Assembly: GCF_019396405.1 (NCBI RefSeq)
Contig: NZ_JAHKRL010000166.1
Location: 1 to 40,124, forward strand
Source: Nonomuraea rhizosphaerae
GTDB lineage: Bacteria > Actinomycetota > Actinomycetes > Streptosporangiales > Streptosporangiaceae
Length of the DNA: 40,124 nt
Direction: 5' to 3'
Shown here piece by piece: positions 13,670 through 27,135 of the stretch. Every line of letters starts with the position of its first letter. Position 1 is the first letter of the stretch. A model generated the notes under the pieces. It was not told the DNA's origin and ran no database searches. It saw only the letters and a list, made by a program, of their open reading frames with translations. The position numbers were made by a program, and so were the translations under genes.

Positions 13670-13765
13670 GCTCTCCATTGTTCATGTGCCGTTTCTGACG
13701 GCTTAAGGCGGCCGGGCTAGCTTGAAGCGGTCGTGAACGGGCCATCACCCGGCTGGGAGAACAGA

Positions 13766-14710
13766 GTGGGCAAGCAGGCGTCGGCCTGGGTGGAGTCCCC
13801 GCTACAGATGCTGTGCGCCGTCGAGGCGCACCGCGCTGGACTGCTCGGACAGGCCACCGTGGTCGTGCCGCGCGCCGGGCTGCGCGCGCTCAAGGCGACC
13901 CGCCGCGAGCTGTCCGGGCTGGCGCTGCCCGAGGGCCTGGAGCTGGCCGAGCCGCGCGAGCGGATGCCGCGCCGGGTCCACGCCGTCGGCGACGCCTTCT
14001 CCGGCAAGGTCCAGCTCCGCTGGCTCACCTCCGGGCAGCGGCGCATCGTGATCGTCGACGACGGCCTGGCCACGCTCCGGCTGCTGGAGCTGCTGGCCGC
14101 CGGGCCGTACCGGCCGCTGCTGCGGGCCCGCGCCCGCCACGGAGGGCCGCGCGCGGTCCTCGGCCTGGCGGCGTCGCTCAGGCTGCGCCTCAGCGACGTG
14201 ACGGTGTTCACCGCGCTGCCGGTCTCGGCGGACCTGGAGCGGGCCGTGCGCGCGGCCGGCGCCGGCCTCGTCCGCCACGACTTCGGCTGGCTGCGCGAGC
14301 AGCCGCTGGCCGAGCCGGGGCCGGAGGAGCGCACCGTCGTCCTGGGCACCTCGCTGGTGCGCAACGGCCTCGTGCACCGCGACCGCTACCTGCGCTGGCT
14401 CATGGACCTGGCCTCCGAGGAGCCCCTGGCGTACTTCCCGCACCGGCGCGAGGACCCGGTGGACGTGGCGCTGATCCGCGACCGGCCCGGCATCACCGTG
14501 CACGACCGCGGCGTCCCCGCCGAACTGACCCTGCGCGGTCTGCACCCGAGCCAGCGGGTGCTGAGCCTGCCGTCGACCGCCATCAGCTCCCTGCGGGTGC
14601 TGCTCAGCCCGCGCGGCGTCGCGGTCGAGCCGGTCGACGTGCCCGACGACTGGTGGACCAGCAGGGCGGCCCCCGCCCTGCGCTCGCATCTGACAGGAGT
14701 TCCCGGTTGA
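13766..14710 (+). CDS. Putative glycosyltransferase with sialyltransferase-like (GT52/polysialyltransferase-type) motifs
   Basis: 314 residues, start GTG at 13766 with GGGAG six bases upstream. The opening WVESPLQMLCAVEA resembles the first strand of GT52 and polysialyltransferase-like enzymes. A D98-D99-G100 motif (IVIVDDG) matches the D/E-D/E-G motif of bacterial sialyltransferases. FPHRRED (225-230) sits where those enzymes carry the His-Pro donor motif, although the proline here is before the histidine. S270-T271 matches the third (S-S/T) motif. Function is inferred: possible transfer of a CMP-activated nonulosonic acid. It overlaps the next gene by 3 bp (TTGA), so the two are likely co-translated. 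The CMP-sugar synthetase fusion lies 7 kb away on the other strand. Confidence 0.6.
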   Translation: MGKQASAWVESPLQMLCAVEAHRAGLLGQATVVVPRAGLRALKATRRELSGLALPEGLELAEPRERMPRRVHAVGDAFSGKVQLRWLTSGQRRIVIVDDGLATLRLLELLAAGPYRPLLRARARHGGPRAVLGLAASLRLRLSDVTVFTALPVSADLERAVRAAGAGLVRHDFGWLREQPLAEPGPEERTVVLGTSLVRNGLVHRDRYLRWLMDLASEEPLAYFPHRREDPVDVALIRDRPGITVHDRGVPAELTLRGLHPSQRVLSLPSTAISSLRVLLSPRGVAVEPVDVPDDWWTSRAAPALRSHLTGVPG

Positions 14711-15873
14711 GAGTGCTGGCGGTCGCCGACTCCGACTCGTACCTGAAGTGGGCGGCGTGCCTGCTCGATGACCTGCCGCAGGGGTGCGAGGCGGAGCTCG
14801 CCGTGGTGCGCACCCCCATCGCGCCCTCGCCCGAGCAGATCGCCGCCGCCGTCGGCGGGCGTCCCGCGCCGCCGCTGCTGCCGGCGCGGGCGCTGCGGCG
14901 CATGGCCGAACGCACCCGGCCGGACGCCATCGTCGTGGCCTGCACGGGCCCGGTCGTGGACGTGCTGGTGGCGGAGGTGTTCGCCGGGCTGGCGCCGCGC
15001 CCGGTGTTCGTGACCGGGCTGCCGGGCATCTCGGTGCCGGCCACGGAGAAGGCGTGGCTGTACCGCAGCGGCTGCGACCTGTTCGTGGTGCACAGCGAAC
15101 GCGAGGTGGCCGAGTTCGCCCAGCTCGGGGCGCGGCTCGGCGGGGGAGGGGCGGTCGGGCTGGCCCGGCTGCCGTTCCTGCGCCCCCGCGTCGAGGGCGG
15201 CGGGAACCGGGTCGTGTTCGCCACCCAGGCCAAGGTGCCGCGCCGGCGCGAGGAGCGCGAGAGCATCCTGCTCGGGCTCGCCGAGCTGGCCAGGCTCCGG
15301 CCCGACCTGGACGTCGTGGTCAAGCTGCGCGCCCTGGAGGACGAGCGGCAGACGCACAACGAACGCCACCACTACCAGCGGCTCTGGCGCGACCTGGGCG
15401 AGCCGGGACGGCTGTCGTTCGCGGCGGGTTCGATGCACGAGCAGCTCGTACGGGCCGCCGGGTTCGTCACGGTCAGCTCCACGGCGGCGCTGGAGGCCAT
15501 CGCCCAGGACGTGCCGCTGCTGGTGCTGAGCGACTTCGGCGTGGGCGCGGAGATGATCAACCTGGTGTTCGAGGGCAGCGGCCTGCTGGGCACCCTGGAG
15601 GAGCTGTCGGCCGGCGACTTCCGGCCCGCCGACGCCGCCTGGTGCGCCGCCAACTACTTCCACCCGGCCGGCCGCAACGACTGGGCTGGCCGGCTGGAGC
15701 AGCTGGTGGCGACGCGGCCCCGCGTCCCGGCGACGTCGCTGCTGGACGGGCCCGAGCACGCGGTGGCCCGGCGGCGGGCCAGGATGCGGCTCGACGTGCC
15801 GCCGACGGTGCTGCGGGCGGGGTACCGGGCGAAGAAGAGGATGCGCCGCTACCTGCGCGCCCTGTCGTCGTAA
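14707..15873 (+). CDS. Putative glycosyltransferase (DUF6716-like)
   Basis: 388 residues, start TTG at 14707 with AGGAG seven bases upstream, overlapping the previous stop. The layout suggests a GT-B fold. An N-terminal Rossmann half starts RVLAVADSDSYLKWA, with a conserved VTGLPGISVPATEKA loop (~105). A C-terminal half contains VVKLRALEDERQTHNE (~215) and TVSSTAALEAIAQDVPLLVLSDFG (~255-280), the latter like the nucleotide-sugar loop of capsular glycosyltransferases. The C-terminus is very basic (KKRMRRYLRALSS), suggesting association with the membrane. I recall the DUF6716 label for similar actinobacterial proteins, unverified. It is coupled to the sialyltransferase-like gene and probably acts on the same polymer. 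Confidence 0.6.
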   Translation: MRVLAVADSDSYLKWAACLLDDLPQGCEAELAVVRTPIAPSPEQIAAAVGGRPAPPLLPARALRRMAERTRPDAIVVACTGPVVDVLVAEVFAGLAPRPVFVTGLPGISVPATEKAWLYRSGCDLFVVHSEREVAEFAQLGARLGGGGAVGLARLPFLRPRVEGGGNRVVFATQAKVPRRREERESILLGLAELARLRPDLDVVVKLRALEDERQTHNERHHYQRLWRDLGEPGRLSFAAGSMHEQLVRAAGFVTVSSTAALEAIAQDVPLLVLSDFGVGAEMINLVFEGSGLLGTLEELSAGDFRPADAAWCAANYFHPAGRNDWAGRLEQLVATRPRVPATSLLDGPEHAVARRRARMRLDVPPTVLRAGYRAKKRMRRYLRALSS

Positions 15874-15982
15874 CCCCTGTGGCTCATGTGGCTGCGGGGG
15901 CGCGGCTCTGACGGCTCGTGTGCCTCGTGCCCGCGGCTCTTACGGCCTGCGTGCCTCAGGGCCCGCGTGTCTCACCGCCCCT

Positions 15983-16016
15983 GTGACGTCGGGGGCCGCG
16001 TGACGTCGGGGGCCGC
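15983..16016. repeat. 17-bp perfect tandem duplication
   Basis: The unit GTGACGTCGGGGGCCGC occurs twice head-to-tail (15983-15999, 16000-16016) in the 217-bp gap between the two glycosyltransferase genes and the GT87 gene. Looser repeats of 'acggc-ctgcgtgcctc-gcccgcg' type precede it from ~15909. No gene is seen in this gap. Confidence 0.85.
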
Positions 16017-16026
16017 GCAGTTCTTA

Positions 16027-16044
16027 CGGTCCGCGTACGGACCG
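16027..16044 (+). terminator. Small GC hairpin, possible terminator
   Basis: Inverted repeat CGGTCCG / CGGACCG with a CGTA loop, 154 bp beyond the glycosyltransferase stop. The 7-bp stem is short and no U-tract follows, so a regulatory role for the next gene is also possible. Confidence 0.35.
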
Positions 16045-16090
16045 CGCCGCGACGTGGGCGGGCGGGCCGGGCGGTGCCAGGCTCCGGAGG

Positions 16091-17443
16091 GTGAGCAGGC
16101 ACACGATCTCCCTCGCCTTCCTCGCCGCGACGCTGGCGGCACTCGTCGCGGTCCTCGTTCGCATGGCGCTGGGGCGTCCCGATCTGCTGCGCTGGTACCT
16201 GGTCGCCTGGGCGCTGTTCGCCCTGGCGCTGTGGCTGCTGCGCTCGGTGCCCGAGGGGCGGCGCGGCGCGCTGGTCGTCGCCGGCGGCATCGTCGTGGCC
16301 GCCACCGGGCTCGCCGCCCCGCCCAGCACCAGCACCGACTCCTACCGGTACGCGTGGGACGGCCGGGTGCAGGCGGCGGGCCTGTCGCCCTACGACCATC
16401 CACCCGCCGACCCCGCGCTGAGCTTCCTGCGCGACGGCTGGCTCTTCCCCGGCGACTGCGACGCGCCCGACCGCGCCCGGCTGGCCGAGGGCGGCTGCAC
16501 CCGGATCAACCGCCCGGCCGTGCACACGATCTACCCGCCGCTGGCCGAGGGGTACTTCCTGGCCGTCCACCTGCTCTCGCCCGGCGGCGTGCGGCACAAG
16601 GCGCTGCAGCTCGGCGGCGCGCTGATGGCGATCGGGGTGCTGCTGGCGCTGTGCCGCCGGTTCGGCGCGGACAAGGCCGCGTACTGGGCGTGGTGCCCGG
16701 CCGTGCCCGCCGAGGCGGTCGGCAACGCGCACGTCGACATGCTGGGGGTGTTGCTGGTGGTGCTGGCGTTCTGCGTGGTGCGGGGGAGGGGAGCGCTGCT
16801 GGGGGCGGCGGTCGCCGCCAAGCTGCTGCCCGTGGTGACGCTGCCGGGCGCGCTGTCGGGCGTGCTCAAGGGCGTCTCCAAGAGCGGGCCCAATGGCGGG
16901 CTCAGGGACTGGCTCAGGGACGGTGTCGCCTGGCGGCGGATCGCCGCCACACTGGGGCCCGCCGTCCTGGTGGTGCTGCTGGCCTACCTGCCCTACCTGC
17001 TGGTCTCCCGGGCGTCCGTCGCGGGCTACCTCTTCGGATACGTCCAGGAGGAAGGTTACGAGGCGCCTTCGGCGCGGGGGAGGTATGCCGTGTTGCGGCT
17101 GGTGATGCCGGACTCCTGGGCGCCGTTCGCGGCGATCCTCGTGCTCGGGGCCGTGGTCTTTTACGTGCTGCGTCACGGGGACGCGGAGCGGCCCTGGGGC
17201 GGGGCGCTGCTGGTGAGCGGGACGCTGCTGCTGGTGCTGACGCCCGAGTACTCCTGGTACGCCCTCCTCGTCGTCGCCCTGGTGGCCCTGGACGGGCGGT
17301 GGGAGTGGCTCGGCGTGGCGCTCGCGGGGGCGGTCGGTTACCTGTTCGGGCCCGCGACGCTCGCGTACACGCTGGCCGCCCTGGCCGTGACAGTGGGCTG
17401 GGCCGTGCGCCGCGCGCGCCGGCCGGTGGAGGTGGCGGCATGA
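16091..17443 (+). CDS. GT87/DUF2029-type polyprenol-phosphate-mannose-dependent glycosyltransferase, polytopic
   Basis: 450 residues with roughly ten membrane helices, the first at residues ~5-25. An extracytoplasmic loop after helix 3 holds TDSYRYAWDGRVQAAGLSPYDHPPAD, with an aspartate near the membrane face typical of GT-C enzymes, and TRINRPAVHTIYPPLAE, typical of GT87/DUF2029 proteins. Such enzymes add mannose or similar sugars from a lipid-linked donor outside the membrane. The GTG start directly abuts GGAGG, leaving almost no spacer, so the true start is uncertain; later starts would lose helix 1. Its stop overlaps the next gene by 4 bp (ATGA). Confidence 0.8.
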   Translation: MSRHTISLAFLAATLAALVAVLVRMALGRPDLLRWYLVAWALFALALWLLRSVPEGRRGALVVAGGIVVAATGLAAPPSTSTDSYRYAWDGRVQAAGLSPYDHPPADPALSFLRDGWLFPGDCDAPDRARLAEGGCTRINRPAVHTIYPPLAEGYFLAVHLLSPGGVRHKALQLGGALMAIGVLLALCRRFGADKAAYWAWCPAVPAEAVGNAHVDMLGVLLVVLAFCVVRGRGALLGAAVAAKLLPVVTLPGALSGVLKGVSKSGPNGGLRDWLRDGVAWRRIAATLGPAVLVVLLAYLPYLLVSRASVAGYLFGYVQEEGYEAPSARGRYAVLRLVMPDSWAPFAAILVLGAVVFYVLRHGDAERPWGGALLVSGTLLLVLTPEYSWYALLVVALVALDGRWEWLGVALAGAVGYLFGPATLAYTLAALAVTVGWAVRRARRPVEVAA

Positions 17444-18549
17444 TCCTTCGGACGCTGCCGGACAGGTTCACCAGCCGCCTGCGCTCCGAGCGGGTGGCCG
17501 CCAGGCTCGGGATCTGGCTCGGCGTCAGCTTCACCGTCGCCTTCGCCACCGGCCTGTTCAGCCACTTCACCCAGCACCCGCCCGCCTGGCTGCTGTGGCC
17601 GTCACGGCCGGTCAACCTCTACCGGGTCACCCAGGGGCTGCACGTCGTCGGCGGCATCGCCACCGTCCCGCTGCTGCTGGCCAAACTGTGGACGGTCTAC
17701 CCCAAGCTGTGGCAGTGGCCGCCGCTGCGCTCGGCCGGGCACGCCGCCGAGCGGCTGTTCGTGCTGCTCCTGGTGGCGGGCGCGCTGTTCCAGCTCGTCA
17801 CCGGGCTGATGAACATCGCCTACACCTACCCCTGGCCGTTCGGCTTCGTCCAGGCGCACTACTGGACCGCGTACGTCACGTACGGGGCGCTCGTCGTCCA
17901 CGTCGTCAACGAGTGGGCCAAGGTGCGGCGGCACCTGTGGACCCGCGTCGAGGACCCGGACCGCCGCCGCTTCCTGACCACCGTGGCCGCCGCGGCCGGC
18001 CTGGCCGCCCTCGTCACCGCGGGGGAGACGCTCACCCCGCTGGAGCGGCTGGCCGTGCTCGCGCCGCGCGGCCCGCGCATCGGGCCGCAGGGGGTGCCGG
18101 TCAACAAGACGGCGCTGGCCGCCCAGGTCACCGGGGTGATCAGGGACCCGGCGTACCGGCTGGCCGTGACCGGGGCCGTCCGCGCCGAGCTGTCGCTGAG
18201 CCTCGCCGACCTCACCCGGCTGCCGCAGCACACCGTACGGCTGCCGATCGCCTGCGTGGAGGGATGGAGCGTGGAGTGCGAGTGGACCGGCGTCCGGCTG
18301 CGTGACCTCGTCCGGCTGGCCGGTGGGGCGCCGGACGCGGTCGTGACGGTCGAGTCGCTCGAACGCGCCGGCTCCTACCGCGTCAGCGAGGTGCGCCCGC
18401 CGCACTGGAACGACCCGCTGACCCTCCTCGCCCTGAGGATCAACGGCCAGGTACTGGACGCCGACCACGGCTATCCCGTGCGGCTCGTCGCGCCCAACCG
18501 GCCGGGTGTCATGCAGACCAAGTGGATCGGCCGGGTGAGGGTGGCATGA
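17440..18549 (+). CDS. Membrane-anchored molybdopterin-dependent oxidoreductase with cytochrome-b-like N-terminus
   Basis: 369 residues in two parts. The N-terminal ~200 residues hold five hydrophobic helices (~24-44, 63-83, 103-125, 138-160, 178-196). Histidines such as H68 and H154 could ligate haem. The C-terminal domain (~215-369) is a sulfite-oxidase-type molybdopterin fold, with the conserved cysteine C272 in PIACVEGWS and later GYPVRLVAPNRPG. Just before helix 5 lies D-R-R-R-F-L-T (175-180), a Tat-like twin-arginine motif. This fits the actinobacterial polytopic metalloproteins inserted by Sec and finished by Tat. The electron donor and acceptor are unknown. It overlaps both neighbours by 4 bp, implying a three-gene operon. 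Confidence 0.88.
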   Translation: MILRTLPDRFTSRLRSERVAARLGIWLGVSFTVAFATGLFSHFTQHPPAWLLWPSRPVNLYRVTQGLHVVGGIATVPLLLAKLWTVYPKLWQWPPLRSAGHAAERLFVLLLVAGALFQLVTGLMNIAYTYPWPFGFVQAHYWTAYVTYGALVVHVVNEWAKVRRHLWTRVEDPDRRRFLTTVAAAAGLAALVTAGETLTPLERLAVLAPRGPRIGPQGVPVNKTALAAQVTGVIRDPAYRLAVTGAVRAELSLSLADLTRLPQHTVRLPIACVEGWSVECEWTGVRLRDLVRLAGGAPDAVVTVESLERAGSYRVSEVRPPHWNDPLTLLALRINGQVLDADHGYPVRLVAPNRPGVMQTKWIGRVRVA

Positions 18550-19163
18550 GGTGGATCGGGTACGCGGCCGGCTGCGCGCTCGTGGCGCTCGGCGGGCACG
18601 GTCTGGTGACCGGCAGCGACCCGGCCGGGTGGGCGCTGTGGTTCGGCGGGGTGGTGGTGGCGCACGACGCCGTCCTCGCGCCCCTGGTCCTGCTGGCCGG
18701 GGTTGCTATGGGCCGGCTGGGCGGCGGGCCGGGGGGCGGGCTGGGTCGTGCGCCGAGGGCGGCGCTCGTCCTGGCGGGCACGGTGACGCTCGCGACGCTG
18801 CCGACCGTGCTGGCGATGGGCAGGCGCGCCGACAACCCGTCGATCCTGCCGCTCGACTACGGGCGCGGGCTGCTGATGGTCCTGGCGGCGCTCACGGTCG
18901 CCGCCCTCACCACCCGCCTCACCACCGCACCCGCGCGCCCCGGCTCGCCGCCGGGCCAGGAAACAGCGGCCTGGGGAACAGCGGCCTGGGGAACGCCAGG
19001 CCGGGGGATGGCCGGCCTGGGAGTGCCAGGCTGGGCGTCCAGGACGGCGGTGGCAGTGGGCGCGGGCCTGGCCGCCTGGTCCGTCGCCCCCATGGACCCC
19101 GCCGCCGCGCTGCCGCTCGGCGGGCTCGCCGGGATGCTGCTGCTGCACGCCTCAGATGGCTGA
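18546..19163 (+). CDS. Small polytopic membrane protein of unknown function
   Basis: 205 residues from ATG 18546, which overlaps the molybdoenzyme stop (ATGA). I predict about four or five helices: ~4-22, ~28-52, ~72-92, ~105-120 and near the C-terminus. An acidic/basic signature NPSILPLDYGRG lies between helices 3 and 4. Residues ~140-165 are Gly/Trp/Ala-rich, encoded by a degenerate 15-bp tandem repeat, and probably form a flexible loop. I do not recognise a family. Its place in the operon suggests a partner or assembly factor for the molybdoenzyme, or an accessory of the GT87 protein. The last 12 bp overlap the convergent gene. Confidence 0.75.
   Translation: MRWIGYAAGCALVALGGHGLVTGSDPAGWALWFGGVVVAHDAVLAPLVLLAGVAMGRLGGGPGGGLGRAPRAALVLAGTVTLATLPTVLAMGRRADNPSILPLDYGRGLLMVLAALTVAALTTRLTTAPARPGSPPGQETAAWGTAAWGTPGRGMAGLGVPGWASRTAVAVGAGLAAWSVAPMDPAAALPLGGLAGMLLLHASDG
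18964..19038 (+). repeat. Degenerate 15-bp tandem repeat inside a coding region
   Basis: Five units of 15 bp: the first two are identical (CAGCGGCCTGGGGAA), and the next three diverge while keeping the CC-GG-CTGGG core. The in-frame product is a TAAWG-like pentapeptide repeat within the small membrane protein. Length preserves the frame, so unit number could vary without breaking the gene. Confidence 0.8.
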
Positions 19164-20420
19164 GCGGATCTTCCTGCGCAGCCGGGTCAGGGCAGTCGGC
19201 CGGGCCGCCAGCCCCAGGGTCTCCAGGCGCTTGCGCTTGAAGTAGCGCCTCGGGAAGTCGTAGCCGACCGGCCGCAGCTCCGGATACGTCTCCGCCTGCA
19301 TGCAGTAGCCGACCGCCCGCACCAGCTCCGGCAGGTCCACGCGCGGCGGCGGCCGCATCGAGCCGTCCGCCTCCATGCGCGGCAGCAGCGCGTCCACGAT
19401 CGTGACGGGCACCCGGTTGCTGTTCTCGTACGGGGCCAGCCGCTCCAGCACCAGATCGGTGCCGTACGAGGCGGCGGGCACCCCGAAGTAGCGCCCGGCC
19501 GTGACCAGGCCGGTGGAGAAGCAGCCCACCACCAGCTCCGGCCGCAGCGCCGCGAAGCACACCTCGGCCGGGACGCTCTCGCCGGCCACCAGCAGCCGCA
19601 CGTCCAGCTGCTCGGCGGCGGCCCTGAGCAGCTGCGCGTGCCTGCGCCCGGCCGCCGGGTGCGGCTTGAACACCACGGTCGAGCAGCCGCGCGCGACCAG
19701 GCCGCGCAGCATCGACTCGTGCAGCCCCGCCTCCTCCTCGGGCGTGAGGATCTCCAGGGCCGACAGGTACTGGCCGAGGATCATCGCCTGGCCGGCCAGC
19801 ATGTCGGGCGCGGTCGTCGCCACCTGCCGCACCACCGCCAGGAACGCCTCGTCCGGCAGGATCGACGCCGGCACCCCGTACTCGCTGAGCAGGAGCGGCT
19901 CCAGCCCCGGCACCAGGTCCAGGTGCAGCAGCCGGGTGACGCGGCGGAAGATCTCGGCCGGCAGCGGGTCGCGGGTCGGGCCGTAGCTCATCAGGCCGTC
20001 GGAGTAGACGGTGATCGGGCAGTCGCGCACCAGCCCGGCGATGGTCCGGGCGGGCGGCACCGCGATCGACTCCAGCACCAGCTCCGACACCTCCTCCAGC
20101 CCCAGCCGGCCGCGGATCAGCCGCTCCATCATCGGCACCTCGACGACGCGGGCCTTCCAGTCCGACGGGTGCAGCGGCGCGATCAGCTCGTTCCACGAGT
20201 GCACCTCGTCGAAGCGCGAGCGCAGCACCGCGAAGCCCGGCGCCCGGTCCAGCGGCAGCGCGACCTCGGGGATCGCCGCGTTGTTCGACACGATCAGGAC
20301 CCGGCGCCCCTCGGCGAAGCGGCCGTCGTCGATCGCCGCGGCCACGGACATCGCCCCGAACAGCGTCGAGGCGTAGAAGACCGTCGTCCCTGAGGAGGGC
20401 GGGTCCGAAGGGGATGTCAT
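19152..20420 (-). CDS. Polysialyltransferase-like glycosyltransferase (read from an internal start of the GT2 fusion frame)
   Basis: 422 residues if translation begins at ATG 20420, which has a strong GGGAGGA site five bases upstream. Three motifs match bacterial poly- and oligosialyltransferases: S-D-G in TVYSDGLMSYGP, H-P in VFKPHPAAG, and S-T in GCFSTGLV. The basic C-terminal tail (RRYFKRKRLE, LRRKIRSAI) suggests membrane binding. It would elongate a chain of CMP-activated nonulosonic acid units at the cytoplasmic face. The same frame continues upstream into a GT2 domain with no stop, so it may instead be the C-terminal half of a fusion (see the 19152-21398 entry). It converges with the small membrane protein gene, overlapping 12 bp. 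Confidence 0.72.
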   Translation of the reverse strand: MTSPSDPPSSGTTVFYASTLFGAMSVAAAIDDGRFAEGRRVLIVSNNAAIPEVALPLDRAPGFAVLRSRFDEVHSWNELIAPLHPSDWKARVVEVPMMERLIRGRLGLEEVSELVLESIAVPPARTIAGLVRDCPITVYSDGLMSYGPTRDPLPAEIFRRVTRLLHLDLVPGLEPLLLSEYGVPASILPDEAFLAVVRQVATTAPDMLAGQAMILGQYLSALEILTPEEEAGLHESMLRGLVARGCSTVVFKPHPAAGRRHAQLLRAAAEQLDVRLLVAGESVPAEVCFAALRPELVVGCFSTGLVTAGRYFGVPAASYGTDLVLERLAPYENSNRVPVTIVDALLPRMEADGSMRPPPRVDLPELVRAVGYCMQAETYPELRPVGYDFPRRYFKRKRLETLGLAARPTALTRLRRKIRSAI

Positions 20421-21398
20421 GAGTCCTCCCGATCGCGGCGCAACCGGACATGGGGGCTGGGGGGGCAGTTCGGGCAGCAGCGCCCGCAGCGTGGCCTCGC
20501 GGTCCACGGACATCCGCGCCACCGCCTCCGCCACCAGGTCCGCGGGCAGCGTCCTGACCATCTGCGCGCCCCGCTCCTCGAAGCGGGCGCGCAGCGGCGG
20601 CGTGAAGCGGCCGGCGATCTCCAGGTGGTGGGCCAGCAGCGCGCAGAAGTTGCGCACCGCCTTCGGCAGGAACTCCTCCTCCAGATCCTTGAACACCAGG
20701 TCGAAGGCGTCGAAGAAGTGGAGCTGCCGCTCGTCGCCCACCTGCGTGAGCGATCCGGACACCATCCGCCGGTAGAACACCCCGGCCAGCGACACCACGG
20801 CGAACGAGGCCGCCTCCCGGTGCAGCCGCCAGATCCACGGCCGGTCCTCGGCGGTGTGCAGCGAGCCGGGGAAGTGCAGCAGGTCGCCCAGCGAGCGCCG
20901 GTAGACCCCCGCCCACGCGTACGGGTAGTCGACCATGGTCCGCACGCCGGCGGGCAGGATCGCCTCCCGGGGGTCCAGCACCGCGCCGCGCCGCGCCAGC
21001 GGGGCGCGGTGCAGGACCCGTTTACGGCCCTCGACCTGCACGTGGTCGGCACGCACGAAGTCGCAGCCGAGCCCGTCGACGGCCTCGACGAGCCGCGCCA
21101 GGTAGCCGGGGGCCAGCCAGTCGTCACCGTCCATGTACGTGACGTACCGGCCGGTGGCCGCCGCCAGCCCGGCGTTGCGCGCGTCCGCCAGCCCCACCGG
21201 GACGGTGTGCCGCAGGACGGTCAGGCCGGGCAGGTCGGCGCGGAAGTCGTCGACGATGTCGCCGGTGGCGTCCACCGACCCGTCATCGACGACGATGTAC
21301 TCGAAGTCGCGCCGCGTGTTGCGGCACAGGGAGGAGAGCGCGTCGGCGATGAAACGCTCGCCGTCGCGCACAGGGACGATGACCGACAGAAGTGTCAA
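19152..21398 (-). CDS. GT2 family glycosyltransferase, as read fused to the polysialyltransferase-like domain
   Basis: As given, the frame is open for 748 residues. Residues 1-~326 are a GT-A family 2 domain: SVIVPVRDGERFIADAL, the VVDDGS nucleotide motif, the DGDDW metal-binding DxD, and a later WAGVYRRS segment with AEDRPWIW. Residues 327-748 are the polysialyltransferase-like domain. The start is TTG 21398 with GAGGG five bases upstream, 11 bp after the synthase fusion gene. The two parts join through a Pro-rich linker encoded by a run of seven C on this strand (20465-20459). With one C fewer, GT2 would end at a TGA overlapping the second ATG as ATGA, so fusion versus two genes rests on one base. 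GT2 may start or link the chain that the second domain extends. Confidence 0.7.
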   Translation of the reverse strand: MTLLSVIVPVRDGERFIADALSSLCRNTRRDFEYIVVDDGSVDATGDIVDDFRADLPGLTVLRHTVPVGLADARNAGLAAATGRYVTYMDGDDWLAPGYLARLVEAVDGLGCDFVRADHVQVEGRKRVLHRAPLARRGAVLDPREAILPAGVRTMVDYPYAWAGVYRRSLGDLLHFPGSLHTAEDRPWIWRLHREAASFAVVSLAGVFYRRMVSGSLTQVGDERQLHFFDAFDLVFKDLEEEFLPKAVRNFCALLAHHLEIAGRFTPPLRARFEERGAQMVRTLPADLVAEAVARMSVDREATLRALLPELPPQPPCPVAPRSGGLMTSPSDPPSSGTTVFYASTLFGAMSVAAAIDDGRFAEGRRVLIVSNNAAIPEVALPLDRAPGFAVLRSRFDEVHSWNELIAPLHPSDWKARVVEVPMMERLIRGRLGLEEVSELVLESIAVPPARTIAGLVRDCPITVYSDGLMSYGPTRDPLPAEIFRRVTRLLHLDLVPGLEPLLLSEYGVPASILPDEAFLAVVRQVATTAPDMLAGQAMILGQYLSALEILTPEEEAGLHESMLRGLVARGCSTVVFKPHPAAGRRHAQLLRAAAEQLDVRLLVAGESVPAEVCFAALRPELVVGCFSTGLVTAGRYFGVPAASYGTDLVLERLAPYENSNRVPVTIVDALLPRMEADGSMRPPPRVDLPELVRAVGYCMQAETYPELRPVGYDFPRRYFKRKRLETLGLAARPTALTRLRRKIRSAI

Positions 21399-21409: not shown

Positions 21410-23449
21410 TCAGACGGTGACGCGGCGCAGCCGGGCCTTGGGCGCCTCCTCGCCCGGGAAGACGCGCTTGACGCCGTCGCCCAGGGCCTGCTCGATGATC
21501 CGGACGTCGCGCACCAGGTGCTCCAGGCCGGAGGGCTCCAGCGAGGCGGCGTGGTCGGAGCCCCACATGGTGCGGTCGAGCGTGATGTGCCGCTCCACGC
21601 AGACCGCGCCGAGCGTCACCGCGGCCAGCGAGATCTGCAGGCCGCGCTCGTGCCCCGAGTAGCCGACCGGCACGCCGTACCGCTCCTTGAGGGTGGTGAT
21701 CGTGCGCAGGTTCGCCTCCTCCGGCGGCAGCGGGTACGTCGAGGTGGCGTGCATCATGATCAGCTTCTCGGTGCCGAGGATCTCGACCGCCTCGTCGATC
21801 TCCGACAGCGTGGACATGCCGGTGGACAGGACCAGCGGCTTGCCGGTCGCCGCGAGCGCGCGCAGCAGCTCGTGGTCGGCGACGCTGGCCGAGGCCACCT
21901 TGTGCGCCAGGACGTCCATCTCCTCCAGGAACTCCACGGAGGGCACGTCCCACGGCGAGGCGAACCAGTGCAGGCCCCGCTCGTCGCAGTACTTGGCGAT
22001 CTGGCGGTACTCGTCGCGCCCGAACTCGGTGCGCTCCTTGTACTCCAGGTAGGTCATCTCACCCCACGGCGTCTGCCTGATCTGCCCCTTCTGCTCCTCG
22101 GGCACGCAGATCGCCGGGGTGCGCTTCTGGAACTTCACCGCCTGGCAGCCGGCGTCGGCCGCCACGTCGACGAGCCTGCGGGCCAGGTCGAGGTCGCCGT
22201 TGTGGTTGATGCCGATCTCGCCGATCATGTACACCGGCTCGCCGTCGCCCACCAGCACGTCGCCGATCGCCACCGGGCCCAGCCGGGGTCGCGTCCTGGC
22301 GGCCTCGGGAGCGGGCGGCTCGGGCCGGGCCTGGATGACCCGGTCGCACAGCTCACGCACCGCGCCCGACCCGCCGGGCCGGGTCAGCACCACGCGGGCG
22401 GCGGCGCGCACGCGCGGGTGCGCGTCGGGCGTGGCGACCGGCCAGCCCACCTCGGCCATCGGGCCCAGGTCGTTGACGTCGTTGCCCACGTACGCCACCC
22501 GCGCCGGGTCCAGGCCCTCGATCGTCAGCCAGTCGCGCAGCACGGTCCGCTTGTCGGCCAGCCCCTGCAGCACCGGCACGCCCAGCTTGCGCGCCCGCGC
22601 GGCGACGACCGGGTTGTGCTCGGTCGACATGACCAGCACTTTGACCCCGGACCGGCGCAGCAGCGCGACGCCCATCCCGTCGGACCGGCTGACCAGCACC
22701 ATCTCGCGGCCCTCGGAGTCGACGTAGGCGCGGTCGTCGGTGTGCACGCCGTCGAAGTCGGTGATCACCGCGTCCACGTCGATCGGCTCAGGCGCGTCGA
22801 CGAACGGGGCGAGCGCGCGGACCAGCTCCAGGTCCTCGGGGTTGTCGATCTCGATCGCGTGCTGCGGCGGCACCTGCTGCACGGCGACGGTGCCGAAGAA
22901 GCGGTGGCCGCTCTCGCGCAGCCCGGAGGTGCGCATGACGTAGAAGGCGCCGTTCTCGCGGAACTGCGGCTCGCGGTCCTGCCTGCGCGGCCGGACCGCC
23001 GGGTCGTGGTTGATCCCGGCGCCGGCCGCGGTCCACAGGAACTCGTGCGTGGCCAGCCCGGACACGACCGAGTCGGCCTCGCCGTCCAGCACCTTGCGCA
23101 CCGCCGCCGACAGGTCGCCGGAGTCGATGAACGCGCTCGTGCACTGCACCAGCACGACCACCTCCGGGTCGGCCTCCAGCGCGTCGAGCGCGTGCAGGAC
23201 GGCCGACTCGCTGGAGGCGGTGGCGCCGCTCAGCTCCTCGGGACGCTCGACGACCAGCGCGCCCGCCTTCCTGGCGGCCTCGGCGATCCCCGCGTGGTCG
23301 GTGCTGACCACCACCTGGTCGATCAGCTCGGCGCGCAGCGACGCGCGCACGGCGCGGGCCACCAGGGGGATCCCTCCCACCGGCTCGAGGTTCTTGAGCG
23401 GGACGCCCGCCGAACCACCGCGGGCGGGAACAACGGCCAGGACTCGCAA
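21410..23449 (-). CDS. Trifunctional CMP-nonulosonate synthesis fusion: NeuA-like cytidylyltransferase, KdsC-like HAD phosphatase, NeuB-like synthase
   Basis: 679 residues, start TTG 23449 with GAGGAG about six bases upstream. Residues 1-~220 are a CMP-sialate/CMP-Kdn synthetase (VVPARGGSAGVPLKN, then FRENGAFYVM and EIDNPEDLELV). Residues ~223-375 are a KdsC/YrbI-type HAD phosphatase: nucleophile D231-F-D233, S275/T276, K300, and GNDVND (322-327). Residues ~392-679 are a NeuB TIM barrel: E411-IGINHNGD, VKFQKR, VLSTGMST, HATSTYP, GYSGHERG, ERHITLD. Condensation with phosphoenolpyruvate, dephosphorylation and CMP activation could thus occur on one chain. The phosphatase suggests a 9-phosphate intermediate, as in the Kdn pathway from mannose 6-phosphate. 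NeuB lacks its usual C-terminal SAF domain, and the NeuA motif has Ala14 where Lys is usual. Confidence 0.9.
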   Translation of the reverse strand: MRVLAVVPARGGSAGVPLKNLEPVGGIPLVARAVRASLRAELIDQVVVSTDHAGIAEAARKAGALVVERPEELSGATASSESAVLHALDALEADPEVVVLVQCTSAFIDSGDLSAAVRKVLDGEADSVVSGLATHEFLWTAAGAGINHDPAVRPRRQDREPQFRENGAFYVMRTSGLRESGHRFFGTVAVQQVPPQHAIEIDNPEDLELVRALAPFVDAPEPIDVDAVITDFDGVHTDDRAYVDSEGREMVLVSRSDGMGVALLRRSGVKVLVMSTEHNPVVAARARKLGVPVLQGLADKRTVLRDWLTIEGLDPARVAYVGNDVNDLGPMAEVGWPVATPDAHPRVRAAARVVLTRPGGSGAVRELCDRVIQARPEPPAPEAARTRPRLGPVAIGDVLVGDGEPVYMIGEIGINHNGDLDLARRLVDVAADAGCQAVKFQKRTPAICVPEEQKGQIRQTPWGEMTYLEYKERTEFGRDEYRQIAKYCDERGLHWFASPWDVPSVEFLEEMDVLAHKVASASVADHELLRALAATGKPLVLSTGMSTLSEIDEAVEILGTEKLIMMHATSTYPLPPEEANLRTITTLKERYGVPVGYSGHERGLQISLAAVTLGAVCVERHITLDRTMWGSDHAASLEPSGLEHLVRDVRIIEQALGDGVKRVFPGEEAPKARLRRVTV

Positions 23450-23521
23450 CGTGACTCCTCAGTGCTTACGGGTTGCACCCAGAAGCTAGAGGCCCGGATT
23501 GAACTGGCAGCGTCTCGCCCA

Positions 23522-24187
23522 TTAACTTTCCATGGGGATCCGGTAGAGCAACTCTGGACGGCCCACCCCGCCGTACTGCGGCATGCGCACCGCGACCCCC
23601 AGCTCCACCAGGTGTTCCAGGTAGCGGCGGGCCGTCACCCTCGACACCCCGGCGGCGGTGCCGGCGGCCTGCGCCGACATCCCCTCCGGGCTGGCCCGCA
23701 GCTCGGCGGCGATCGTGTCCAGGGTGTCGCGGGCCAGGCCTTTGGGCAGCTCGGAGCGGCCGCGCAGGGTGCCGAGCACCCGGTCCACGTCGCCCTGCCC
23801 AACGATCTCCCCGGCCTCCTCCCTGAACCGGGCGTAGCGGGTCAGCTTCTCGTTGAGTGTCGCGAAGGTGAACGGCTTGAGAAGGTACTGGGAGATGCCC
23901 AGCGACACCGCCGACCTGACCATCTCCAGGTCCCGCGCCGAGGTCACCGCGATCACGTCGCACAGCAGCCCGCCGGCCCGTACGGCCCGGCAGACCTCCA
24001 GCCCGTGCATGTCCGGCAGGTACAGGTCGAGCAGGATCAGGTCGACCCGCCGCCGGCGCAGGAACCGCAGCGCCTCCCCGCCCGAGCGGACCACGCCCGC
24101 CACCTCGAAGCCCGGCACCCGGCCGACGTAGAGGCGGTTGGCCTCGGCGGTGATCTCCTCGTCCTCCACCACCAGCACCGAGATCAT
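23522..24187 (-). CDS. Response regulator, DcuR/CitB-like
   Basis: 221 residues. The receiver domain is at residues 1-~120, with acidic pocket E8-D9-E10, phospho-acceptor D54 (ILLDLYLPD), T82/S83 and K104 (YLLKPF). A C-terminal winged or multi-helix DNA-binding domain (~150-221) contains SAQAAGTAAGVSRVTARRYLEHL, a helix-turn-helix typical of the CitB/DcuR/MalR group. The ATG overlaps the kinase stop (ATGA). With the divergent dicarboxylate symporter next to the kinase, the likely role is activating C4-dicarboxylate uptake. The palindrome at 25725-25742 is a candidate binding site. Confidence 0.92.
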   Translation of the reverse strand: MISVLVVEDEEITAEANRLYVGRVPGFEVAGVVRSGGEALRFLRRRRVDLILLDLYLPDMHGLEVCRAVRAGGLLCDVIAVTSARDLEMVRSAVSLGISQYLLKPFTFATLNEKLTRYARFREEAGEIVGQGDVDRVLGTLRGRSELPKGLARDTLDTIAAELRASPEGMSAQAAGTAAGVSRVTARRYLEHLVELGVAVRMPQYGGVGRPELLYRIPMES

Positions 24188-25692
24188 CGGACCTGCTCCC
24201 GCACCGGCAGCCGCACGGTGAACACCGACCCGTCGACCTCGATCGTGCCGCCGCACCTGCGCACCGCCTGCCCGACCAGCGCCAGGCCGAGCCCGTGCCC
24301 GTCGCCCTTGGTCGTCCAGCCCCTCCTGAACGCGTCCGGCGCGGTCAGCCCGGGGCCGTCGTCGGCGACCCTGACGAGGAAGCCGTCGCCACCGGCCCGC
24401 AGCAGCACCTCCACCCGCGTGGCCGCCTCGATCGCGTTGTCGATCAGGTTGCCGACGATCGTCACCAGCTCCCTGGCGTCGAGCCCCAGCTCCTCCAGCT
24501 CGCTGTCCAGCTCACTGTCCTCGTGCACGACCAGCTCGCCGCCGCGTTCGGCCGCCTCGGCGCTCTTGCCCAGCAGCAGCGCCGCCAGCACCGGCTCGCG
24601 CACCGCGCCCACCACCCGGTCGGTCAGCTCCTGCGCCGCCCGCAGCTCGGCTGTCCCGAACGCCACCGCCTGCTCCGTGCGGCCCAGCTCCACCAGCGTG
24701 ATCACCGTGTGCAGCCGGTTGGCCGACTCGTGCGCCGCCGACCGCAGCGACTCGGCGAACCCGCGCTCGGCGTCGAGCTGCCCGGCCAGCGCCTGCAGCT
24801 CGGTGTGGTCGCGCACGGTCACGACCGTGCCCAGCTCGCCGGCGGCGCCGTTGACGGCCAGGACGCGGTCGCCGACCAGGTGCACCCGCTCCTCCTGGCC
24901 CGCGCCGAGCACCTCCGACAGGCCCAGCTCCTCCAGGCGCCTGCCCTCGGCGTCCGCGGGCAGGTCCAGGAGCCGCCGCGCCGCGTCGTTGCACAGGGTG
25001 AGCGTGCCGTCCCGGCCGACCAGCAGCAGCCCCTCCCGTACGGCGTGCAGCACCGCGTCGTGGTGCCCGTGGATGCGGGCCAGCTCGACCGGCCCCAGCC
25101 CGAGGGTCTGCCGGCGCAGCCGGGCCGTCACCAGCCACGTGCCCGCCGCGGCCAGCGCGAGGCCGAGCAGCGCGATCAGGCCGATCAGGACGAGCGAGCC
25201 GCGCAGGCTGGCGCTCACCTTCTCGATCTTGATGCCCGCGCTGACCAGCGCCCGCACCTCGCCGTCCACGACGATGGGGGCGACGGCGCGGACCGACGGG
25301 CCGAGCGTGCCCGTGTACGTCTCGGTGAAGGTCTCGCCGTGCAGCGCCGGCCCGGTGTGGCCGAGGAAGCGCTTGCCGATCTCCGCCGGGTTCGGGTGGG
25401 TGTAGCGGGTGCCGTCGGGTTTCATGATGGTGACGAAGTCCAGGCCGGCCTCGGCGCGCACCCGCTCGGCGAACGGCTGCAGCCGCCCGCTCGGCGACGG
25501 CTCCTCCAGCGCGGCCAGCACGTCCGGTGAGGCGGCGACCGTGACCGTCGCCGCCCTGGCCGAGGCCGCCGCCTCGGCCTTGACCAGCCATCCCGCGAAG
25601 GCGACGACCAGCGCGGTGGCGCCCGCCATCAGGACGGTCACCACCAGCAGTTGCAGGGCCAGCATCTGGCCCGCCAGGCTCCAGCGGCGCAT
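24184..25692 (-). CDS. Sensor histidine kinase, DcuS/CitA-like
   Basis: 502 residues. Transmembrane helix 1 (~12-36) precedes an extracytoplasmic single-Cache/PAS-like sensor (~40-160) carrying the family signature DFVTIMKPDGTRYTHPNPAEIGK. Helix 2 (~165-190) leads to a cytoplasmic PAS domain (~205-300). The phospho-accepting histidine is H321 in LRSAAHESANRLHT, the H-x3-N form of the CitA/DcuS family. The HATPase domain (~385-500) has NLIDNAIEA, DDGPG and GHGLGLALV. The ATG at 25692 has GAAGGG upstream. The presumed ligand is a C4-dicarboxylate or citrate-like acid, inferred from the family and the neighbouring symporter. Confidence 0.93.
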   Translation of the reverse strand: MRRWSLAGQMLALQLLVVTVLMAGATALVVAFAGWLVKAEAAASARAATVTVAASPDVLAALEEPSPSGRLQPFAERVRAEAGLDFVTIMKPDGTRYTHPNPAEIGKRFLGHTGPALHGETFTETYTGTLGPSVRAVAPIVVDGEVRALVSAGIKIEKVSASLRGSLVLIGLIALLGLALAAAGTWLVTARLRRQTLGLGPVELARIHGHHDAVLHAVREGLLLVGRDGTLTLCNDAARRLLDLPADAEGRRLEELGLSEVLGAGQEERVHLVGDRVLAVNGAAGELGTVVTVRDHTELQALAGQLDAERGFAESLRSAAHESANRLHTVITLVELGRTEQAVAFGTAELRAAQELTDRVVGAVREPVLAALLLGKSAEAAERGGELVVHEDSELDSELEELGLDARELVTIVGNLIDNAIEAATRVEVLLRAGGDGFLVRVADDGPGLTAPDAFRRGWTTKGDGHGLGLALVGQAVRRCGGTIEVDGSVFTVRLPVREQVR

Positions 25693-25724
25693 CGGAACCC
25701 TTCCGGTGAACGAAACTTACGCAA

Positions 25725-25742
25725 TGGTGACCTGCGTCACCA
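25725..25742. promoter_or_regulatory. Palindrome in the divergent promoter region, candidate response-regulator site
   Basis: TGGTGAC and GTCACCA, 7-bp perfect arms around a CTGC centre, placed between the divergent kinase and symporter genes (105-bp gap). The position suits a site bound by the adjacent DcuR-like regulator, or a core promoter element; there is no direct evidence for either. Confidence 0.55.
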
Positions 25743-25797
25743 CTGGGCAGATAGTCGCACGGTCAGCTGTTTCACACATAGCGACCGGAGACCCCCC

Positions 25798-27135
25798 ATG
25801 CGTGATCGCACCCGCTATCTCTACCTGGCCGTCATCGCGGCGGTGCTGCTAGGGATCATGGTCGGCTTCCTCTGGCCGGACGCCGGGCAGGCGCTGAAGC
25901 CCCTCGGCACCGGTTTCGTCAACCTGATCAGGATGATGATCAGCCCGATCATCTTCTGCACGATCGTGCTCGGCATCGGCTCGGTCACCAGGGCCGCCAA
26001 GGTCGGCAAGGTCGGCGGACTCACCATCGGCTACTTCCTGCTGATGTCCACGGTCGCCCTGATCATCGGGCTGGTGGTGGGCAACCTCATCGACCCCGGC
26101 TCCGGCCTGCAGCTCACCGACGCCGCCAAGAAGGCCGCCGAGGACGAGGCCGCCAAGGGCGCCGCCTCCGGGACCTCCGACTTCCTGCTCGGCATCATCC
26201 CGGCCACGCTGGTGTCGGCCTTCACCGAGGGGCAGACGCTCCAGACGCTGCTGGTCGCGCTGCTCGTCGGCTTCGCGCTGCAGGCCATGGGGCCCAAGGG
26301 GACGCCCGTCCTGACGGCCATCGAGCACATCCAGCGGCTGGTCTTCCGCATCCTGGGCATGGTCATGTGGGCCGCGCCCGTCGGCGCCTTCGGCGCCATC
26401 GCCGCGGTCGTCGGGGCCACCGGCGTCAAGGCGCTGCAGAGCCTGGCCATCATCATGGCCGCCTTCTACGTGACCTGCCTGCTGTTCGTCGGCCTCGTCC
26501 TCGGCCCGCTGCTGTGGGCCGTGGTCAGGATCGGGATCTGGCCGCTGTTCCGGTACCTGGGCCGCGAGTTCCTGCTGATCCTGTCCACGTCGTCGTCGGA
26601 GGTCGCGCTGCCGCGCCTGATCGCCAAGATGGAGCACATGGGGGTCAGCCGGACCGTCGCCGGCATCACCGTGCCGACCGGCTACTCCTTCAACCTCGAC
26701 GGCACCGCGATCTACCTGACCATGGCCACCCTGTTCATCGCCTCGGCCACCGGGGCGCCGCTGCAGTTCGGCGAGCAGATCGCGCTGCTGCTGTTCATGA
26801 TGGTCGCCTCCAAGGGCGCCGCGGGCGTCACCGGCGCGGGCCTGGCCACCCTGGCCGGCGGCCTGCAGTCGCACCGGCCCGAGCTGGTCGACGGCGTCGG
26901 CCTCATCGTCGGCATCGACCGCTTCATGTCCGAGGCGCGGGCGCTGACGAACTTCGCCGGCAACGCGGTCGGCACCCTGCTCGTGGCCACGTGGACGGGC
27001 GACCTCGACCGGGAGCGGGCCGCGCAGGTGCTGTCCGGGAACGCGCCGTTCGACGAGGCGACGCTGCTGGACGAGGAGGAGGACCGGCCCGAGCCGCCGG
27101 CCGAGGAGGAACGCCGCGAGATGTCCCCCGTGTGA
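25798..27135 (+). CDS. Dicarboxylate/amino acid:cation symporter (DAACS family, DctA-like)
   Basis: Secondary transporter taking up C4-dicarboxylates (or glutamate/aspartate) with protons or sodium. 445 residues with about eight helices and two re-entrant loops. Family motifs are MMISPIIFCTIVLGI, the serine-rich hairpin LSTSSSEVALPRL, the unwound helix region YSFNLDGTAIYLTMATLFIA, and NFAGNAVGT with the substrate-coordinating Asp/Asn in IDRFMSEARALTN. A charged Lys/Glu loop lies between helices 3 and 4, and the C-terminal tail is acidic. The ATG at 25798 has GGAG eight bases upstream. The gene faces away from the DcuS/DcuR-like pair, its probable regulator. DAACS proteins are not sugar carriers, so this is separate from the ceb and mal loci. 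Confidence 0.93.
   Translation: MRDRTRYLYLAVIAAVLLGIMVGFLWPDAGQALKPLGTGFVNLIRMMISPIIFCTIVLGIGSVTRAAKVGKVGGLTIGYFLLMSTVALIIGLVVGNLIDPGSGLQLTDAAKKAAEDEAAKGAASGTSDFLLGIIPATLVSAFTEGQTLQTLLVALLVGFALQAMGPKGTPVLTAIEHIQRLVFRILGMVMWAAPVGAFGAIAAVVGATGVKALQSLAIIMAAFYVTCLLFVGLVLGPLLWAVVRIGIWPLFRYLGREFLLILSTSSSEVALPRLIAKMEHMGVSRTVAGITVPTGYSFNLDGTAIYLTMATLFIASATGAPLQFGEQIALLLFMMVASKGAAGVTGAGLATLAGGLQSHRPELVDGVGLIVGIDRFMSEARALTNFAGNAVGTLLVATWTGDLDRERAAQVLSGNAPFDEATLLDEEEDRPEPPAEEERREMSPV

Follow-up and report, generated by a model that had tools for sequence, protein, structure and literature searches.

Does a single polypeptide of the soil bacterium Nonomuraea rhizosphaerae both synthesize and activate a nonulosonic acid, and if so, which one? 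The question is raised by a 679-aa protein encoded on the minus strand at positions 21410..23449 of the window, by which we mean the whole 40,124-nucleotide stretch of DNA analyzed. The gene starts with TTG, ends with TGA (21410-21412), and is preceded at five bases by a Shine-Dalgarno-like GAGGAG read by eye (23455..23460, minus strand). Its product comprises, in order, a NeuA-like CMP-nonulosonate synthetase domain (residues 1-215; 22805..23449), a KdsC-like C0 HAD phosphatase domain (residues 225-375; 22325..22777), an inter-domain linker (residues 376-392; 22274..22324), and a NeuB-like synthase domain (residues 393-679; 21413..22273), all on the minus strand. The Pfam and NCBIfam matches found in this one ORF confirm the anatomy proposed by the first-pass annotation, i.e., NeuA, KdsC-like HAD, and NeuB on a single chain, in an order (activation, phosphatase, synthase) that was correctly described as the reverse of the pathway order. 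The strand opposite the gene is also open, as it lies within a 1337-aa plus-strand ORF.

The source genome is 63.9% complete and comprises 555 contigs, and we considered whether a sequencing or assembly artefact had joined two genes. The contig does contain such a join farther downstream, between a GT2 glycosyltransferase gene (20421..21398, minus strand; PF00535) and a polysialyltransferase-family gene (19152..20420, minus strand; PF07388). These two share one frame only in the window, while they form separate ORFs in all 81 relatives that have both, and the frame of the window departs from that of the few relatives compared by eye in a C-rich stretch near the GT2 end. This join was thus rejected as a second fusion and is not counted as biology. 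The situation differs for NeuA-HAD-NeuB, since the three domains occur in one frame in all 24 other genomes of the genus that were searched. In 23 of them, one stop-free match spans at least residues 2-678; in the remaining genome (G021), the match falls in two pieces, both inside a 709-aa open frame. The nearest named locus, from N. cypriaca, is 94% identical. Among the best 80 of 584 relatives (named genomes), a sample that favors close kin, 74 encode the three domains in a single ORF; in the other six (Thermobifida, Actinorugispora, and four Promicromonospora), NeuA-HAD has a separate NeuB ORF next to it. Because this frame is shared by 24/24 genus genomes and 74/80 relatives, the artefact that the first-pass annotation had allowed for is refuted, and its probability is negligible.

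A search for the spread of the fusion showed that it is no one-off but is common across many genera of the Streptosporangiaceae. In a class-wide draw that included 28 genomes of the same family, the fusion was found in 10 (among them G311, whose two pieces share an open frame), 3 had a split form with a stop within the match, 1 had its pieces on two contigs, 1 gave weak matches only, and 13 had no match, which makes the fusion common in the family without being universal. In group f18 of the draw, presumed to be Streptomyces, the split form was observed in the four loci carried into the alignment (L110, L111, L123, and L130). Both the fusion and its conservation are thus direct observations, and the fusion is old and stable within one family. 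No three-domain NeuA-HAD-NeuB chain was found described in the titles and abstract openings listed by searches of the open-licence literature.

The split relatives suggest how the chain may have formed. In Thermobifida, Actinorugispora, and a related genome, the junction reads ...AARKG-stop-V-A-MT..., with both genes in one frame and, in these Thermobifida-type loci, the NeuB ATG lying two codons past the stop. From this arrangement, the fusion probably arose from a tandem NeuA-HAD/NeuB pair by loss of a stop codon. A tree of 72 of the 104 rows, built by a quick search with no bootstrap, required three changes of the fused or split label. It gathered the Streptosporangiaceae fusions in a single 50-row clade (SH-aLRT 99), adjacent to the Thermobifida group with its split genes; the Cellulomonas fusions (two rows) and that of genome G253 (one row) fell elsewhere. 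The linker of the window contains no ATG, GTG, or TTG codon. Parsing of 73 fused loci gave a raw count of 10 in which a start codon in the linker is accompanied by a 4-base Shine-Dalgarno-like match; 8 of these starts are GTG in Streptosporangiaceae, and the other two (L088 and L108) are ATG. In L087, a locus outside the 73, GGAGG stands ten bases ahead of a linker ATG. All three fusions from outside the family appear to retain the old NeuB start, so they may be recent or leaky. Across 11 Nonomuraea sequences, the median dN/dS was 0.28 for NeuA, 0.17 for HAD, 0.14 for NeuB, and 0.51 for the linker; the weakly constrained linker is therefore the fastest-evolving part, and each of the three domains is constrained.

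We then considered each domain in turn. Residues 5-178 match CTP_transf_3 (PF02348; 3.9e-22, 79.6 bits against a gathering threshold of 22.6), and the conserved RGGS stretch and polar residues expected of a NeuA domain are present, with R10, G11, G12, R156, Q157, and E165 invariant in 29/29 fused proteins. The best PDB sequence match is PpNeuA, a CMP-Kdn synthetase (9t4z, 9.5e-34), followed by the murine CMP-Neu5Ac synthetase (1qwj, 1.8e-29). By structure, the modelled domain resembles the Neisseria CMP-Neu5Ac synthetase 1eyr (Z 27.9, rmsd 3.5, 210 residues) and PpNeuA 9t4z (Z 27.5, rmsd 3.2, 213 residues) to the point that the two are tied.

The central domain (residues ~225-375) is a HAD of the KdsC/KDN-9-P phosphatase type according to TIGR01670 (4.1e-26) and NF058599 (1.3e-24). 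Both matches remain below their cut-offs, the KdsC-phosphatase subfamily model TIGR01670 at 91.8 against 106.95 bits and the Kdn-9-P phosphatase equivalog NF058599 at 87.2 against 180 bits; no control genome exceeded the NF058599 cut-off. The motif residues of a C0 HAD are all present, namely D231 and D233 (motif I), S275 (II), K300 (III), and D324 and D327 (IV), and they are invariant in 29/29 aligned fused proteins and in 85/85 fused rows; the first-pass annotation, which had reported intact motifs at D231/D233, K300, and D324/D327, gave exact numbers. More generally, 17 active-site positions taken from the three sites, chosen on established knowledge of these families, hold the same residue in each of the 85 fused rows (the window among them) and in 19/19 split rows, save for a gap in one split row at 231 and at 233. 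The intactness of these residues, like the fusion, is observed directly.

An alternative reading holds that the HAD is a noncatalytic oligomerization module, with the phosphate removed by another phosphatase or an unphosphorylated substrate used from the start. The layout is indeed shared with vertebrate CMAS, whose C-domain is reported to be tetrameric and to have no phosphatase activity (PMC8636478), and certain split relatives are entirely without HAD. In genomes G152 (at two places), G297, and G210, NeuA and NeuB are immediate neighbors whose matches lie 21 to 132 bases apart, which leaves no room for a HAD, and no HAD match was found in the 20-kb locus of one of the G152 places (L124). 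The phosphatase is thus retained in all 85 fused rows, yet not in every relative. Against a purely structural role, the catalytic residues are invariant in every one of these fused rows, and the HAD evolves under a lower dN/dS than NeuA (0.17 against 0.28). We consider a noncatalytic HAD quite unlikely and favor the reading of a probably active phosphatase.

Two further residues bear on the sugar recognized by this phosphatase. E277 and K288, within STEHNPVVAARARKLG, align by eye with E56 and K67 of BT1713, within TGEKTEIVRRRAEKLK, with matching context and an identical 11-residue spacing. Both are kept in 85/85 fused and 19/19 split rows. We take this Glu/Lys pair to be the mark that separates Kdn-9-P from Kdo-8-P phosphatases. 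In the solved BT1713 variants, residue 56 is Ala in 4hgq and both residues 56 and 67 are Ala in 4hgr; apart from 3mmz, the six other KdsC-type chains listed have Arg (five chains) or Ala (one chain) at the first of these positions and no Lys at the second. The closest solved relative of the window HAD, 3mmz (2.9e-53), has both Glu and Lys, and the HAD of L130 is nearer still to it (2.9e-77). This structure, presumably of a Streptomyces avermitilis protein, was solved as a lone domain, and its listing as a "putative HAD family hydrolase" gives no function.

The C-terminal domain matches NeuB (PF03102) over residues 426-661 (1.1e-83, 280.8 bits against a gathering threshold of 22.1), and its model aligns with 6ncs (Z 31.6, rmsd 3.1, 264 residues). 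Its best NCBIfam synthase match is TIGR03569 (N-acetylneuraminate synthase, NeuB_NnaB), which covers model positions 1-278 of 329 and scores 268.8 bits, below the cut-off of 399.65. The chain ends after the barrel, as no C-terminal SAF (antifreeze-like) domain was found in the fusion with Pfam at E 0.001, while a second NeuB of the same genome (L002) does carry one. In Neisseria NeuB, Arg314 of the SAF domain touches the N-acetyl group, and structures of the R314 mutant (4ipi and 4ipj) were among the PDB matches listed. A synthase without SAF would therefore suit an acceptor without an N-acetyl group, an argument that we treat as a lead only.

An AlphaFold2 model of the whole fusion had a mean pLDDT of 76.8 and a pTM of 0.50, values at which the single domains are usable and the arrangement of the domains is uncertain. 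Fold comparison of this model returned NeuB- and NeuA-like chains throughout, with no HAD chain among the 50 matches listed.

We infer the substrate, product, polymer, regulation, and assembly of this system. It is likely that the protein is a trifunctional CMP-Kdn synthase, using mannose 6-phosphate, phosphoenolpyruvate, and CTP, that feeds a phosphate-free wall polymer. The C-terminal NeuB would condense mannose 6-phosphate and phosphoenolpyruvate into Kdn 9-phosphate, the central HAD would strip the 9-phosphate, and the N-terminal NeuA would activate Kdn with CTP to give CMP-Kdn, an activated sugar akin to sialic acid. The GT2 enzyme, the polysialyltransferase-family protein, and a predicted sialyltransferase-like neighbor would then use CMP-Kdn for a teichulosonic-acid-type wall polymer, probably made under phosphate shortage. 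A more elaborate assembly, possible but doubtful, would have a tetrameric HAD core bearing four NeuA and four NeuB domains, with Kdn 9-phosphate and Kdn passed between sites so that mannose 6-phosphate, phosphoenolpyruvate, and CTP become CMP-Kdn without release; making a phosphate-free polymer in this way under phosphate starvation would return inorganic phosphate to the cell.

The three activities could instead act on ManNAc 6-phosphate and yield CMP-Neu5Ac or another N-acylated nonulosonate. NeuB and NeuA families handle several nonulosonates, the CMP-Neu5Ac synthetases 1eyr and 1qwj are close to the NeuA domain, and TIGR03569 is the best synthase match, though below its cut-off. NanE, which could supply ManNAc 6-phosphate, scored above its cut-off in 13/26 genomes of the genus (one of them with a partial match), so that this substrate is possible in those genomes. 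NeuC, on the other hand, exceeded its cut-off in none of the 30 genus genomes, in agreement with its absence as noted in the first pass; the weaker NeuC relatives present in 30/30 are probably UDP-GlcNAc 2-epimerases. Genomes such as G010, a single contig, carry the fusion without NanE and without NeuC over the cut-off, and the fusion is devoid of the SAF domain that bears the N-acetyl-contacting arginine in Neisseria. Mannose 6-phosphate could be supplied more generally. The bact-PGI_C family, which we take to be bifunctional phosphoglucose/phosphomannose isomerases, was found in 26/26 genus genomes, and type I PMI in 20/26, with none found in the other 6; PF20511 and PF10432 were used here in place of PF01238, a poor marker of mannose-6-phosphate isomerase (1/26). 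As judged from gene content, mannose 6-phosphate is the only one of the phosphorylated acceptors considered that has a source in every genome searched, and we regard the use of ManNAc 6-phosphate as unlikely. The route from mannose 6-phosphate to CMP-Kdn, which had been the simplest reading at first pass, is instead favored by the BT1713-type Glu/Lys pair, the 9t4z match, the NeuC count, and a gene order like that of Streptomyces.

The gene neighborhood, also observed directly, is consistent with the use of CMP-Kdn in a polymer. The probable TTG start of the GT2 gene lies 11 bases past the fusion stop, and the two genes are likely in the same operon. The 88 loci compared were the 80 described above plus 8 further regions of 20 kb, some of which share a genome with one of the 80. 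In 81 of these loci, the synthase genes have GT2 and polysialyltransferase-family genes nearby, and the combination of NeuA, NeuB, GT2, and polysialyltransferase-family genes, our criterion for a teichulosonic acid locus, was present in the window and in 81/88 loci; in five further loci, GT2 and/or the polysialyltransferase gene was missing. Another conserved neighbor, g13721 (13721..14710, plus strand; 329 aa), was found in 66/88 loci; in L124, L130, and the loci of Cellulomonas, it adjoins either NeuB or the fused gene. Its protein gave no sequence match in Pfam, NCBIfam, or the PDB, and its model (pLDDT 89, pTM 0.86) has a predicted GT-B fold. The first Foldseek matches were the Neisseria sialyltransferase NST, a polysialyltransferase, and a Pasteurella sialyltransferase (7.7e-6 to 4.6e-5, TM 0.36-0.46), and a second fold comparison was headed by six sialyltransferase-type chains (Z 14.6 to 12.6), followed by plant UGTs (12.4). 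The predicted fold is thus sialyltransferase-like, although with such low TM values and plant UGTs so close behind, the fold alone cannot show the donor. The motifs DDG, HRR, and ST, invariant among 24 sequences, resemble those of bacterial sialyltransferases.

Regulation was approached by scoring PHO-box-like repeats upstream of the fusion. In the window, the best score was 9/14, not above shuffles (mean 9.03 over 80 loci), while scores of 13/14 were reached in L087 and 12/14 in L079-L081, L083, and L084. Separately, a similar GTTCAGCTC-type stretch lies at a comparable distance in 8 of 25 loci inspected (score 10-11).

The separate enzymes and the pathway are already known; the three-domain chain is a new arrangement whose likely function, as read from its sequence, is clear. 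If this reading is true, one chain carries every step that leads from a central metabolite to an activated nonulosonic acid. The protein would then be a single-enzyme means of making CMP-Kdn, and its gene could mark Kdn-type wall polymers in the Streptosporangiaceae. Its phosphatase, apparently active where only a remnant is left in animal CMAS, would also offer an experimental handle on the former role of the CMAS C-domain.

Several known systems resemble the fusion in part. The likeness to animal CMAS drawn in the first-pass annotation is correct, as NeuA followed by a KdsC-like domain is the layout of both, with NeuB added here; the vertebrate protein has no NeuB, and its C-domain showed no phosphatase activity (PMC8636478), whereas the fusion has intact phosphatase residues. 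The algal PpNeuA system provides the best solved NeuA match, and assays showed formation of Kdn-9-P from Man-6-P (PMC6200933), but its enzymes are on separate proteins. The CMP-Kdn pathway of Bacteroides thetaiotaomicron (Kdn-9-P synthase, BT1713, and CMP-Kdn synthetase) has the same three steps and the E56/K67 pair, though on three separate proteins with three accessions (PMC6200933).

Closer in gene content is Streptomyces coelicolor, whose main wall polymer is described as a phosphate-free Gal-Kdn teichulosonic acid (PMC7831098) and whose SCO4873-SCO4882 region is given as a PhoP-controlled teichulosonic acid cluster (PMC13011467, citing Ostash et al. 2014). SCO4881 is called NeuB (PMC2367054), and the published names of SCO4878 and SCO4880 are putative glycosyltransferase and putative transferase. 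In the presumed Streptomyces loci L123 and L130, NeuA-HAD adjoins NeuB, and the vicinity includes GT2, polysialyltransferase-family, and g13721-like genes. The order in L130 (g13721, NeuB, NeuA-HAD, a DUF6716 putative glycosyltransferase, GT2, polysialyltransferase) fits SCO4882 to SCO4877, compared by published names and not by S. coelicolor sequence. Loci of this type differ from the window in that NeuB is a separate gene, and L124, another of them, is without HAD.

The remaining comparison is with Planobispora rosea, a member of the same bacterial family as the window with a fused congener (L055). There, a "sialic acid synthase" (EV45_RS38880) was matched to SCO4880 and its neighbors to SCO4877-4879 and SCO4882, and these genes follow PhoP-activated genes (PMC8269224). 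The available text gives the gene as SCO4880 alone and mentions no fusion. The expression pattern reported in it supports PhoP control in a relative. Its authors modelled the locus as one for teichuronic acid, in the one paper on a family member that searches of the open-licence literature turned up (PMC8269224). The gene content described here points to a nonulosonate rather than to teichuronic acid.

The GT2 and polysialyltransferase-family genes downstream of the fusion read as a single frame in the window (19152-21398, - strand). This arrangement is confined to this contig, as the two form separate ORFs in all 81 relatives that carry both. The frame difference behind the joining lies at a C-rich stretch, and a sequencing error is possibly its cause. 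Two-component genes resembling DcuS/DcuR also adjoin the fusion, together with a gene for a sodium:dicarboxylate symporter (23522-27135). Of the 88 loci compared, many from Nonomuraea and one from Thermoactinospora have these genes beside the fusion; the remainder do not. The same genome encodes a second NeuB-family synthase, which has the SAF domain (contig C341 of G000, locus L002:372-1865, - strand), and similar additional NeuB matches (about 37-43% identity) are present in many genomes of the genus.

Outside Streptosporangiaceae, separate fusions are found in L087 and L088 (both Cellulomonas) and in L108. The linkers of these genes still contain an ATG, accompanied by a Shine-Dalgarno-like match, and NeuB might therefore be produced alone as well as in fused form. 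In G152, NeuA and NeuB adjoin with no HAD in between (L124:8388-10016), and no HAD phosphatase was detected anywhere in this 20-kb locus; such pairs also occur in places in G297 and G210.

Directly adjoining NeuA-HAD in a presumed Streptomyces locus is a DUF6716 "putative glycosyltransferase" gene (L130:10936-12249, - strand), likely a further component of the wall-polymer pathway. In the window, the Arg/Ala/Gly-rich ORF at 14784-15911 (+ strand) has no family match and is probably a shadow ORF. The ORF at 15886-18549 (+ strand) carries a C-terminal cytochrome b561-like and molybdopterin-oxidoreductase domain, and its N-terminal half is doubtful. The gene at 13721-14710 (+ strand) is a conserved neighbour of the fusion. 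Its product matched nothing in the sequence-family search, and bacterial sialyltransferases were the first Foldseek matches of its predicted GT-B fold. It is a candidate Kdn transferase. Its counterpart in the Streptomyces coelicolor teichulosonic acid locus is possibly SCO4882.
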